Shown piece by piece: positions 23,755 to 57,812 of a stretch of DNA of 60,262 bases (positions are counted from its first letter, which is position 1; the number at the start of each line of letters is the position of its first letter). The position numbers were made by a program, and so were the translations under genes. This stretch comes from an uncultured Bacteroidales bacterium (lineage in GTDB: Bacteria; Bacteroidota; Bacteroidia; Bacteroidales; Bacteroidaceae), in contig CACZMI010000004.1 of the NCBI GenBank assembly GCA_902782245.1, positions 1 to 60,262 of the forward strand, written 5' to 3'. The notes below the pieces were generated by a model. That model saw only the letters and a list, made by a program, of their open reading frames with translations, searched no databases and was not told the DNA's origin.

Positions 23755-23828
23755 GGCTCCGTAGCTCAGTTGAATAGAGCGTCAGATTCCGGTTCTGCAG
23801 GTCGTGGGTTTGAATCCCACCGGGGTCA
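23755..23828 (+). tRNA. tRNA-Arg (anticodon CCG)
   Basis: A full 74-nt cloverleaf. The acceptor stem is GGCTCCG with CGGGGTC (two G-T wobbles), the D arm is GCTC/GAGC, and the T arm is GTGGG-TTTGAAT-CCCAC. The anticodon loop TTCCGGT gives anticodon CCG, reading the arginine codon CGG. The discriminator base is A at 23828 and CCA is not encoded. The anticodon stem has four pairs plus an apparent U-C mismatch at 27-43. A TAACTTCG box 11 bases upstream could be its promoter. The intrinsic terminator and an inverted copy of the tRNA 3' end follow. Confidence 0.93.
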
Positions 23829-54458: not shown

Positions 54459-55918
54459 TAAACATTAAGATCATACACAGAATACTGGGAGTCCTGCTTC
54501 TGATAGAATCAGGAATACTGCTGCTTTGCGCACTTATCCCTGTGTTCTACGGAGAGGATGACCTGTTCGGATTTATCATGGGCTCTCTCACATCGGCCTG
54601 CGTAGGTATGACCGCCCTATACATAGGCAAGAGCACCAAACATAAGGAAGGCGCAATGACCCGCCGCGACGGATATATAGTTGTGGCTCTCAGTTGGGTC
54701 CTGTTCTCAATTTTCGGATCCCTGCCCTATTACATCAGCGGCTATATACCGTCATTCACCGACGCCTATTTTGAGACAATGTCCGGCTTCACAACCACAG
54801 GAGCCACCATAATACAGGATGTGGAGCTAATACCCCACGGCCTGCTGTTCTGGCGCAGCCTGACACAATGGATAGGCGGTTTGGGTATCGTGTTCTTTAC
54901 GGTAGCGGTACTGCCCATATTCGGTGTAGGTGAGGTACAGTTGTTCGCAGCCGAGGCCATCGGACCTACTCGCAACAAACTCCACCCGCGCATAAGTGTA
55001 AGCGGCCGATGGATTATTACCGTATATATCGTGATAACCATTCTGTGTGCCGTTGCACTGAGGTTCTGCGGCATGGGAGTCTTTGACAGCGTAAACCATG
55101 CACTGACCACGGCAGCCACCGGCGGATTCTCCACCAAGAATGCCAGCATAGCCTACTTCAACTCTCACTCGGTTGAGTATGTAATAACATTCTTCATGTT
55201 CCTGTCAGGCATCAACTACGGTCTGCTGTTCTTTGTGATATTCCGCGGCAAGGTACATAAGCTGATTGAGGATACCCAGTTCAAATGGTACCTTATGTTC
55301 CTGCTCATATTTACCTTTATAGTAGGCGTAAGCCTTTTCATATCAACCCCCTACAACGGCTCATCGGCATTGCGCAACGCCCTCTTCCATGTAACTGCCA
55401 TTATCACTACCACAGGCTTCACATCGACCGATTATACCCAATGGCCGCCGTTCATATGGATGACACTGGGCCTATGCATGTATTTCGGTGCCTGCGCAGG
55501 TTCCACCACCGGTGGTATGAAATCAATCCGCATTGCCATCCTGTTAAAGTCCATGCGCAATGAGTTCAACCGCATACTTCACCCCAACGCCATACTTCCG
55601 GTCCGGGTAAACGGCAAGGTCATCCCGCCTTCAACCAGACAGAGTGTACTTACATTCAGCATATTCTTCTTTGCGTTGGTATTTATTGGATGGTTCTTCT
55701 ACCTGGCCATAGGCATAGACATTGCCGAGGCTTACGGCATCTCACTGTCGTGTCTGAGTAATATCGGTCTTACAATAGGATATCACGGATGCAACATACC
55801 GTGGGACGATATGCCCACCATAGGCAAATGGTTCTCAACCTTTCTGATGCTGATCGGCCGACTGGAGGTTTTCAGTGTCCTGCTGGTTATCACCCCCGCT
55901 TTTTGGAAGCATCGCTAA
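54455..55918 (+). CDS. trkH: Trk potassium channel subunit TrkH
   Basis: A 487-residue membrane protein with the four pore repeats of the Trk/Ktr family. The selectivity filter segments are visible as FTTTGATI (first), TAATGGFSTK (second), TTTGFTSTD (third) and the last loop SNIGLTIGYHGC. GSTTGGMKSIR marks the intramembrane loop region. It starts with TTG at 54455, overlapping the trkA stop in TTGA; no ATG stands close by. Its last 84 bases overlap the convergent DUF4435 gene. Confidence 0.93.
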   Translation: MINIKIIHRILGVLLLIESGILLLCALIPVFYGEDDLFGFIMGSLTSACVGMTALYIGKSTKHKEGAMTRRDGYIVVALSWVLFSIFGSLPYYISGYIPSFTDAYFETMSGFTTTGATIIQDVELIPHGLLFWRSLTQWIGGLGIVFFTVAVLPIFGVGEVQLFAAEAIGPTRNKLHPRISVSGRWIITVYIVITILCAVALRFCGMGVFDSVNHALTTAATGGFSTKNASIAYFNSHSVEYVITFFMFLSGINYGLLFFVIFRGKVHKLIEDTQFKWYLMFLLIFTFIVGVSLFISTPYNGSSALRNALFHVTAIITTTGFTSTDYTQWPPFIWMTLGLCMYFGACAGSTTGGMKSIRIAILLKSMRNEFNRILHPNAILPVRVNGKVIPPSTRQSVLTFSIFFFALVFIGWFFYLAIGIDIAEAYGISLSCLSNIGLTIGYHGCNIPWDDMPTIGKWFSTFLMLIGRLEVFSVLLVITPAFWKHR

Positions 55919-56899
55919 GAACTCCCTTACATCCTCTCTCATACGCTCATACGTCTCACATCCCTTGTAGTGCGTATTCTTGCGGATAGCCTCAGTGAGG
56001 CCCATCTGACTGTGCTGATAAGCACTGATCTCGTTATGATACTGCTGGTTGTGGACAGCGAACCTGCGTATTTCCGACTCACGTTCCTGACGCAGCACCG
56101 TACATACGGGCATAAGCAGTTTGAGTATTACGTTCTCCACCAGATGATGTCCCTGAAGGAACAGATATGTGTTATCCTCCCTGACACCCATTGATGTAAG
56201 TTCCTTTCGCAAGGCGGCCACCTCGGGTATTGCCTCCGGATAATGGTTCTCCATCCAGCGGACCTTATGGCTCACCCTCTCCGATACGCTTATAATTGCA
56301 GCCTGAGGCCGGTGTACATCAACAGACTTGAGTTTTATATCCAGGTTAAGGTCCTGCATGCTGTAACTGTTATGCAGTTTCTTGCGGTAGAACCACACGT
56401 TCCATACAAACAGAGGATATACCGCCTTTGAGTAGAGTTCCATGAAACCCTCAAAATCAATCAGTCTGTGGTCATTCAATGTACACTGCACACAAATCTG
56501 ATGCAGGCTCCCCGACCAGCACTGATAGTTTTCAATGGCATAAGTGTAAGTCTGTATGACAAACGGATTACTTATTATCTCTTTTGATGTCTGTGTTACC
56601 CCCTGAAGCAGCCAGTCATAATCACTGTCCACACAAGCAATCAGGTTGCTGCCCAATCCGTTATGCTCAATACACGAACGCAAGGCCGATTTCTTGCCTT
56701 TAGTCAGACCGCCACGATTGGGCAGCATTATCTGGAAATAGTGATCCGGAGTCTCAAACTCATCCAAAAGCACACGCCAGAAAGAGACATCGTCATAACT
56801 CTCCACGAAAGCCACGATACGGCCTCTGCGCTTGCTCGGCAACAGTCTGTCAGCCGCCTCGAAATAACGGGAAGAAATATTGTCTGTAAGTCTCTTCAT
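55835..56899 (-). CDS. DUF4435 TOPRIM-like protein (AriB-like)
   Basis: A 354-residue protein of the DUF4435 family. The N-terminal part has a TOPRIM-like pattern: Glu33 in IVAFVESYDDVSFW, then the D91-x-D93 pair in ACVDSDYDWLL. A Lys-rich turn (LTKGKK) lies between them. The middle is rich in Trp, Tyr and His, and the C-terminus is polar (QQDTENLQSADQHQKG). In the PARIS anti-phage system, AriB is a DUF4435 nuclease that works with the ATPase AriA. Here an ABC-type ATPase gene stands 13 bases upstream in the same order. A defence role is inferred from this pairing; a housekeeping role in Bacteroidales is the main alternative. Confidence 0.75.
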   Translation of the reverse strand: MKRLTDNISSRYFEAADRLLPSKRRGRIVAFVESYDDVSFWRVLLDEFETPDHYFQIMLPNRGGLTKGKKSALRSCIEHNGLGSNLIACVDSDYDWLLQGVTQTSKEIISNPFVIQTYTYAIENYQCWSGSLHQICVQCTLNDHRLIDFEGFMELYSKAVYPLFVWNVWFYRKKLHNSYSMQDLNLDIKLKSVDVHRPQAAIISVSERVSHKVRWMENHYPEAIPEVAALRKELTSMGVREDNTYLFLQGHHLVENVILKLLMPVCTVLRQERESEIRRFAVHNQQYHNEISAYQHSQMGLTEAIRKNTHYKGCETYERMREDVREFLAMLPKSGGDNQQDTENLQSADQHQKG

Positions 56900-56912
56900 G
56901 CTCTATTACCCC

Positions 56913-57734
56913 TCACTTGACGGTAATATCCTCAACATCATATACTGAATCCATCCACCCGTCCATAATCAGTGCCGGCGAATGGGTAGTCATGATAATC
57001 TGACAGTTGGGGTTGAGTGAACGGACGCGCTGTATAAGTTGCTGTTGCCACTCTATATGAAGTGAAATCTCCGGCTCGTCCATAAGCAGTACTCCGGGTG
57101 TCTGGTCCTGAACCAGGGTGGTAAGCATTATCACCAGCAACTGTTTTTCGCCCGATGACAGGTTGTAAGGCAGCAGCGTGGCACCGAACTGGTCAAACAG
57201 AATCTCATTGCTGGTACGGATTATCTTCTTACCGGTATCGGTAAAGAGTTCATCCATGTAATCCATGAACTTTATCTTGGGAGCCGATATCTCCTGCGCC
57301 TCACGTATCTTTTCGGGATCACCCGATGTAAGCAGCTGAATGGTACGGTTGCCTATGTTAACCTGATAATCCAGATAACGGCGCTGCAGTTTGTAGAGTT
57401 GCCAGTCAAGTTCCGATACCACGCTCTTATCGGACATCTTCTCCAACAGATTGCTGTGCATGAGCGGACGGTCTATACTGCGAATAACATCATACTTGAT
57501 CCTGGTTGACCCTTCGGGGAAATAATCTATCTGTACCTCGGGATTCTCTTCCTGACTCTCTCCGGCCAGGTAATCCAGACGTGCTACAGTCTTATTGAGA
57601 ATGGTACTCTTGCCTGTACCGTTAACACCGCTCAGGATATTCACATCGGGACGCAGGTTCCATACTATGTGCTTTCTGCCCCAAAGTGAGTTGATCTCTA
57701 TGCGGCTTATTCCATCGGCGTATCCCTTTTCCAT
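56913..57734 (-). CDS. ABC/OLD-type AAA ATPase (AriA-like partner of DUF4435)
   Basis: A compact 273-residue ATPase of the SMC/ABC-like AAA_21 group. Walker A is GVNGTGKST (36-44), the signature is LSSGEKQ (192-198), Walker B is VLLMDEPE (215-222) and the switch His is in TTHSP (H251). No membrane or DNA-binding domain is seen; the region between Walker A and the signature (about 55-185) is helical. With the DUF4435 gene behind it, the pair has the AriA-AriB (PARIS) or OLD ATPase/TOPRIM layout. The protein is smaller than OLD ATPases, as the TOPRIM part is separate. A leader with promoter and terminator precedes it. Confidence 0.82.
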   Translation of the reverse strand: MEKGYADGISRIEINSLWGRKHIVWNLRPDVNILSGVNGTGKSTILNKTVARLDYLAGESQEENPEVQIDYFPEGSTRIKYDVIRSIDRPLMHSNLLEKMSDKSVVSELDWQLYKLQRRYLDYQVNIGNRTIQLLTSGDPEKIREAQEISAPKIKFMDYMDELFTDTGKKIIRTSNEILFDQFGATLLPYNLSSGEKQLLVIMLTTLVQDQTPGVLLMDEPEISLHIEWQQQLIQRVRSLNPNCQIIMTTHSPALIMDGWMDSVYDVEDITVK

Positions 57735-57770: not shown

Positions 57771-57812
57771 TAAAAAAAGAAGAGTCACCGTAAGGTAACT
57801 CCTCTCTTTTTT
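57771..57812. terminator. Terminator-like hairpin before the ATPase gene
   Basis: AGTCACC-GTAA-GGTAACT forms the top of the stem with one mismatch. It is flanked by A7 on one side (57772-57778) and T7 on the other, so it can act on both strands. On the minus strand it ends 37 bases before the ATPase start and could be an attenuator, the end of a small RNA or a distal terminator for the deacetylase gene. Confidence 0.7.

Follow-up and report, generated by a model that had tools for sequence, protein, structure and literature searches.

A near-fixed, PARIS-like ATPase–DUF4435 gene pair in the chromosomes of Bacteroidaceae

An ATPase gene and a DUF4435 gene beside trkA and trkH

The window analysed here, a stretch of 60,262 nucleotides (nt), is contig C4 (CACZMI010000004.1) of the 2.51-Mb draft genome (98 contigs, 85.7% complete) of an uncultured member of the Bacteroidaceae. 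The genomes nearest to it belong to uncultured Bacteroidaceae and Bacteroidales, in many cases from the rumen or another herbivore gut. Next to trkA and trkH, the window carries on its minus strand a gene for a compact ATPase of the ATP-binding cassette (ABC) type, followed after 13 nt by a gene for a DUF4435 protein (Table 1). The original prediction, made from the sequence alone, had likened this pair to PARIS, the anti-phage system formed by the ATPase AriA and the nuclease AriB. The ATPase motifs, the 13-base gap and the DUF4435 residues E33 and D91-x-D93 that it listed are all present as described, on a strand that it did not mention. Its suggestion that the pair might be a chromosomally fixed relative of PARIS is borne out more strongly than proposed: the DUF4435 protein was found in 146 of the 151 genomes sampled from the family, in 103 of the 106 good ones and in 28 of 30 genera, and the ATPase was found in the identical 146. 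The ATPase gene lies upstream of the DUF4435 gene on the same strand, as expected of PARIS, in 92 of 92 core loci, with a gap of −8 to 357 nt (the count leaves out the divergent loci L034 and L035–L040 and the accessory loci described below).

With scores of 76.2 bits for the ATPase against Pfam AAA_21 and 160 bits for its partner against Pfam DUF4435, the two genes qualify as PARIS under the published rule, given as AAA_15 or AAA_21 side by side with DUF4435, with thresholds of 27 bits for AAA_21 and 27 bits for DUF4435 (PMC9122126). The ATPase also matches the PADLOC AriA model PDLC04164 (194.2 bits), and a sequence search of the PDB returned AriA first (E-value 2.9e-16). Its predicted structure, with a mean predicted local distance difference test (pLDDT) score of 91.3, has the AriA-type ABC fold with intact ATP-binding motifs; the best Foldseek match in the PDB was 8v45_C from the AriA–Ocr complex (E-value 2.9e-12), and ranks 1–7 were all PARIS (AriA) entries. 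PtuA-type ATPases resemble it as well, at lower score, both in PADLOC and in fold, and all of the 25 NCBIfam matches listed, of 106, fell below their own cut-offs. Between the Walker A motif and the ABC signature lies a helical region that is well conserved: residues 84–131 show 65% mean pairwise identity, as against 71% from signature to switch and 32% in the linker before the region (46 of 51 aligned ATPases, the excluded rows being three shortened proteins and two from genus g8). We propose that this region is the sensor or partner-binding part. It is lacking in the three shortened ATPases of 223–244 amino acids (aa) (L104 of genus g5, L121 of g11 and L153 of g30), which keep the ATP motifs and whose DUF4435 partners retain their catalytic residues; in seven family genomes outside g8, belonging to the same three genera, the ATPase match begins only at about residue 150. 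The long branches of L104 and L121 meet in the ATPase tree, which bears on whether the region was lost three times independently.

In PADLOC the DUF4435 protein matches AriB models only (PDLC02983 at 192.9 bits and PDLC04165 at 118.5 bits), and it has no match in NCBIfam. The TOPRIM catalytic acids of AriB, a glutamate and a D-x-D, have counterparts here that did not vary in alignments of 51 core family proteins and of a wider set of 26, so that the loss of these residues in homologues, which had been named as a sign against the assignment, was not observed. D37 is likewise invariant in both alignments, and E33, D91 and D93 are invariant in a further set of 22 proteins that includes two from proteobacterial plasmids. 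From the TOPRIM motif, without a direct alignment, E33 is proposed to be the equivalent of AriB E26; the E26A variant of AriB is reported to be inactive (PMC12409363). In the same protein K60 and K64 are described as holding the tRNA anticodon loop, and their mutation as abolishing defence (PMC12409363). Judged by its spacing from the TOPRIM glutamate, G68-K69-K70 is a possible counterpart of these lysines; K69 is not kept throughout the wider and accessory set. Decay of the gene was considered and rejected for the aligned set, in which the catalytic residues are intact. Some family matches carry a stop within the matched stretch (for example in G053 and G109), and in G011 the gene is split.

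Table 1. Features of the gene pair and its surroundings (positions in the window)
Feature	Position	Strand	Remarks and basis
ATPase gene, predicted AriA-like sensor	56913..57734	minus	273 aa, compact; PADLOC, Pfam, Foldseek
Walker A, GVNGTGKST (ATPase 36–44)	57603..57629	minus	near-invariant in aligned ATPases
Conserved helical region between Walker A and signature (ATPase ~88–135)	57330..57473	minus	helix 108–136 in model
ABC signature, LSSGEKQ (ATPase 192–198)	57141..57161	minus	sequence; conserved in alignment
End of Walker B, MDEPE (ATPase 218–222)	57069..57083	minus	D219 and E220 invariant, 51/51
Switch histidine H251 (ATPase)	56982..56984	minus	invariant, 51/51
DUF4435 gene, predicted AriB-like TOPRIM nuclease	55835..56899	minus	354 aa; Pfam, PADLOC, invariant residues
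TOPRIM glutamate E33, proposed equivalent of AriB E26	56801..56803	minus	invariant, 51/51 and 26/26
G68-K69-K70, start of helix after second strand	56690..56698	minus	G68 and K69 invariant, 51/51; helix from 69 in model
TOPRIM D91-x-D93	56621..56629	minus	invariant, 51/51 and 26/26
84-nt antisense overlap of DUF4435 and trkH 3′ ends	55835..55918	opposite strands	sequence
Terminator-like hairpin	57772..57811	minus	ends 37 nt before ATPase start codon; −23.5 kcal/mol, z −7.4

The DUF4435 gene and trkH overlap at their 3′ ends by exactly 84 nt in 26 of the 33 convergent loci that have both genes (L002–L026 and L029), by 51 nt in L027 and by 4 nt in L095, with no overlap in the five others; in the structural model the overlapped tail (residues 337–354) has a pLDDT below 50 over most of its length. 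On the other side of the pair, the hairpin could be an attenuator of the two genes or a terminator of the gene upstream. When 30 further loci of the genus and its close relatives (L002–L027, L029 and L094–L096) were scanned by pattern, 12 had a similar one 33–39 nt ahead of the ATPase start; hairpins of an unlike kind were seen in L106, L121 and L135.

Distribution, neighbourhood, descent and selection

The near-universal presence of the pair can be set beside that of trkH, a positive control found in 141 of the 151 family genomes, and of the OLD-like TOPRIM family PF20469, a patchy control found in 19. Neither gene was found in G016, G028, G059, G121 and G135. Twelve family genomes have two DUF4435 matches, of which at least one case (G011) is the split gene. 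Outside the family the protein is sparse: 17 of 198 genomes matched in a sample of the order, which leaves 14 (including one weak match) of at most 195 once the three from the family itself are set aside, and 7 of 198 matched the Pfam DUF4435 model in a sample of the phylum (6 of 197 without the source genome itself). The nearest DUF4435 relative outside the family, in G262 (L161:7983-9035), keeps the TOPRIM residues and adjoins a ClpB-like gene; no ATPase of the present kind lies beside it, as judged from the neighbourhood, the rest of that genome not having been searched. No relative was found in 50,697 phage records, and viral contigs gave one pattern match, unconfirmed, in a scan that reaches close relatives only. 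Two of 18 plasmid records, from Bacteroides and Phocaeicola, carry the core pair at 49–53% identity (L174, NZ_OY725943.1; and OY726067.1). The one that was viewed has housekeeping neighbours, meaB and an alpha-2-macroglobulin gene, and may be a mislabelled piece of chromosome.

The original prediction had asked whether the pair stands beside trkH in all related genomes. It was seen next to dxs, trkA or trkH in this genus and in some loci of other genera, and sits elsewhere in the remainder. By genus, one or more of these three genes lie near the pair in g1 and, for one or two loci apiece, in g6, g9, g11, g21, g23, g24, g25 and g30, as well as in L031 and L033; this pattern suggests that the dxs–trkA–trkH vicinity is its ancestral place. 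Elsewhere the settings differ; in Bacteroides, for example, the pair lies between genes for a drug/metabolite transporter (DMT) and a mechanosensitive channel. A Bacteroides finegoldii record is among those that carry it. A fixed third gene was sought and not found among 68 core loci whose neighbours were clustered (their order was unreadable in nine): the most frequent neighbour cluster, represented in L174 by an annotated DMT transporter, occurs in 20, and dxs, trkA and trkH in 17, 14 and 11.

Some genomes that bear the core pair also hold divergent second copies, situated among conjugative-transposon, capsule and other defence genes. The neighbours of the two kinds of locus were compared with 71 sampled core proteins (<1000 aa, within five genes, from 26 loci) and all 71 accessory proteins of at least 110 aa from seven loci, two sets that were not drawn alike. 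Among the 25 of 128 Pfam families listed for the core neighbours, most are housekeeping and none is a mobile-element family, and at an E-value of 1e-20 these proteins matched five PADLOC models (MkoA twice, MkoC, mad2 and mad3), with one or two proteins each. The 25 of 75 families listed for the accessory neighbours include MobC, TraM, relaxase, YWFCY, HipA and capsule enzymes; 22 PADLOC models were matched, several of them alternatives for one system, with type IV restriction and SoFic among them.

Descent of the core pair follows the genera. The DUF4435 tree has 85 rows, of which 71 are core rows of 28 genera (g8 included), and requires 27 genus changes, the minimum, although g3 and g9 do not form single clades; a 98-starred branch parts the 68 core rows outside g8 from every accessory copy. 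For the ATPase, a tree of 82 rows, 70 of them core and covering 28 genera, again gives 27 changes, the minimum, with a weak backbone and with g9, g11, g12, g14 and g30 not forming single clades. The deep order of these trees is not to be trusted, because branches are long and the tree method was a quick one.

The pair is under purifying selection, roughly at the level of its housekeeping neighbours. Across 21 loci from the genus and its close relatives, the median ratio of nonsynonymous to synonymous substitution rates (dN/dS) was 0.075 for the DUF4435 gene and 0.051 for the ATPase gene, as compared with 0.041 for trkA, 0.083 for trkH and 0.055 for dxs, values that are rough since the median dS of 1.16–1.34 is near saturation and only 73–111 of the 210 pairs compared for each gene fell within the dS filter of 0.1–1.5. 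Loss also occurs. In G059 (L188:1881-2955) the order of meaB, DMT transporter and mechanosensitive channel genes is kept, with 150 bp where relatives have the pair, and tblastn of this site gave no trace of either gene. In the two good g3 genomes without the pair, G121 and G135, the flanks are separated, and no trace of the pair was seen in the stretches that were read. The clean absence in G059 and the absence in G121 and G135 thus indicate that the pair is dispensable.

Proposed function and competing explanations

We favour, with a probability of roughly 0.6, the view that the family ancestor gained a two-gene abortive-infection module of the PARIS type and that vertical descent has maintained it ever since as a core pair of the chromosome. 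An anti-phage function is likely by analogy with the system of Escherichia coli, in which AriA hexamers are described as keeping AriB inactive (PMC12409363). The compact ABC ATPase would then be the sensor, binding the DUF4435 TOPRIM nuclease and keeping it inactive until the ATPase receives a trigger, most likely via the conserved helical region. Once freed, the nuclease would cleave the anticodon stem of some host tRNAs, bringing translation to a halt and aborting the infection. If the helical region does read the trigger, its conservation implies that the trigger is constant for most of the family; it would probably be a host process, or a phage feature that is itself conserved, rather than one fast-changing phage protein.

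In PARIS of E. coli, tRNA is reported to be cut between positions 40 and 41, at the site U36AAUC|A41 (PMC12409363). Among the 36 tRNA species that could be parsed from the incomplete source genome, UAAUCA stands at positions 36–41 in tRNA-Lys(CUU), tRNA-Asn(GUU) and one CAU tRNA. The tRNA-Lys(UUU) has UAAGGA instead, and the two Thr tRNAs that were parsed have UAAUGC, as in the barely cut E. coli tRNA-Thr(CGU). Because the tRNA-Lys(UUU) and Thr motifs differ, the E. coli target list is not transferable unchanged. One tRNA gene lies within the window itself, at 23755-23828.

Several observations weigh against the favoured view. It is unusual for a defence gene to be nearly fixed and to have a conserved middle region, and both features would suit a housekeeping role equally well; strict conservation, which was observed, had been named beforehand as speaking against defence should a phage effect be absent and a clear housekeeping effect be seen. 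A structural match to AriA and AriB, the lack of which had likewise been named as a sign against the assignment, was obtained for the ATPase and failed for its partner: with the DUF4435 model (pLDDT 87.7) Foldseek gave no significant match, either to PDB chains or to viral models, and searches of PDB sequences never reached AriB, whether they started from the protein of the window, from a profile of 26 sequences or from four further DUF4435 proteins, nor did relatives from E. coli and Klebsiella provide a bridge to the solved protein. The nuclease assignment accordingly rests on family models and invariant TOPRIM residues. Congruence at the genus level does not exclude transfers on deep branches, the genus of two rows in the DUF4435 tree (L022 and L027) was assumed by the analyst, and the near-saturated dS makes the comparison with housekeeping genes a loose one. 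In g8, all five sampled genomes have a divergent pair at 30–33% identity that falls outside the core clade (ATPase of 294–358 aa in the three loci read, L111–L113) and is possibly a replacement; in the remaining 141 of the 151 genomes the DUF4435 match has at least 41% identity.

A first alternative is a domesticated, non-defence module, in which sensor and nuclease would answer a host signal, such as stalled translation, damaged tRNA, or a chromosome or stress state, and would trim or cut RNA in normal physiology. Presence in nearly all family genomes, a housekeeping-like dN/dS, housekeeping genes as the commonest neighbours, an ATPase middle region that is conserved rather than diversifying, and the AriB-like protein of the nearest outside genome, which stands beside a ClpB-like gene with no neighbouring ATPase, all agree with it. 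The clean absence in G059 and the absence from two good g3 genomes do not, nor does the lack of a fixed third gene, and it would be odd for an indispensable regulator to have lost the helical region, as members of three genera have. We consider domestication possible, if rather doubtful.

The nature of the effector offers a different alternative, a PARIS-like sensor joined to a DNA-cutting nuclease of the OLD or Gabija type. A glutamate and a D-x-D are general to TOPRIM nucleases, and the ATPase resembles PtuA-type ATPases in sequence and fold; against this, the DUF4435 protein matches only AriB models in PADLOC and nothing in NCBIfam, and the characterised AriB is described as a tRNA nuclease (PMC12409363), which makes a DNA-cutting effector improbable. 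An ordinary, horizontally moving PARIS that merely happens to sit at this place would agree with the other compact PARIS pairs of the family and order, which are patchy and partly on mobile elements. The near-universal presence of the core pair, the congruent trees and the dxs–trkA–trkH vicinity common to several genera argue otherwise, as do the lack of any match in phage records or confirmed match in viral contigs (within the reach of that scan) and the finding of copies in only two of the plasmid records, the viewed one with chromosomal-type neighbours. For the core copies we regard horizontal movement as refuted, unless a denser sample breaks the congruence.

Implications and relation to known systems

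Turnover is the expectation for defence systems. A relative of PARIS that is present in 146 of the 151 genomes sampled from a dominant gut family, under selection of housekeeping strength, is a counter-example, and its natural losses supply ready-made comparisons. We put forward more tentatively than vertical descent itself that a suicide-type immune module with a tRNA nuclease has become a core pair of the family, with a trigger constant since the ancestor, be it a host process or a common phage hallmark. Were this true, the pair would stand apart from fast-turnover defence genes as a constitutive innate guard, or else would have passed from defence to regulation of the cell.

PARIS, defined by Pfam pairs, has been reported in 5.2% of genomes (PMC9122126), and Rst_PARIS in 20% of human gut genomes, mainly of Bacteroidales, with nearly none in soil or sea (PMC10924106). 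The latter survey groups Rst_PARIS with second-line systems, described as mostly not species-specific and as favoured by environment and genetic mobility (PMC10924106). As the core pair falls under the Pfam rule, it should be counted in published PARIS surveys, and it may explain the PARIS excess in gut Bacteroidales (PMC10924106); if those Rst_PARIS calls are mostly the core pair, the excess reflects ancestry. Whether the targets of AriB are conserved or diversifying has been raised as a question (PMC12409363), and a fixed orthologue in 28 sampled genera makes it testable. No earlier description of a core PARIS pair in Bacteroidaceae was found in the open-access literature without preprints, which is no proof of novelty.

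Among known systems, the PARIS of E. coli B185 comes closest, sharing the order of ATPase and DUF4435 TOPRIM protein, the ATPase fold, which is nearest to AriA, and AriB-type catalytic residues. It differs in the size of the sensor (AriA has 464 aa in solved chains, as against 273 aa here) and in that the relation to AriB is visible here via family models, with no direct match to a solved chain. A patchy, mobile distribution is usual for PARIS, without being part of its definition; the core pair, by contrast, is chromosomal, near-fixed and genus-congruent. The accessory compact PARIS pairs of the same family (L154–L160) likewise combine an ATPase with a DUF4435 protein and match the same PADLOC families, yet they fall outside the core clade in both trees and lie among mobile and defence genes. 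Their scores differ as well: against PDLC04164/PDLC04165 the accessory L155 reaches 394.7/408.5 bits, the core L099 195.7/134.8 and the accessory L154 116.7/79.8, whereas against PDLC02983 the core L099 reaches 216.4 bits and the accessory proteins 79.6 and 72.1.

OLD nucleases and Gabija GajA also join an ABC ATPase to a TOPRIM nuclease; there the two domains share one polypeptide, whereas here they are encoded by two separate genes. This association in OLD and Gabija is described in the same report as the partner of the Septu and retron ATPases, the HNH nuclease PtuB (PMC12409363). The present ATPase resembles PtuA in fold and matches PtuA models at lower score, but its partner is a DUF4435 protein and not an HNH nuclease. 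By architecture, family models and predicted catalytic residues, the pair is thus of the PARIS type, and it is a variant of that type in its fixed, genus-congruent and family-wide status and in its compact, conserved sensor.

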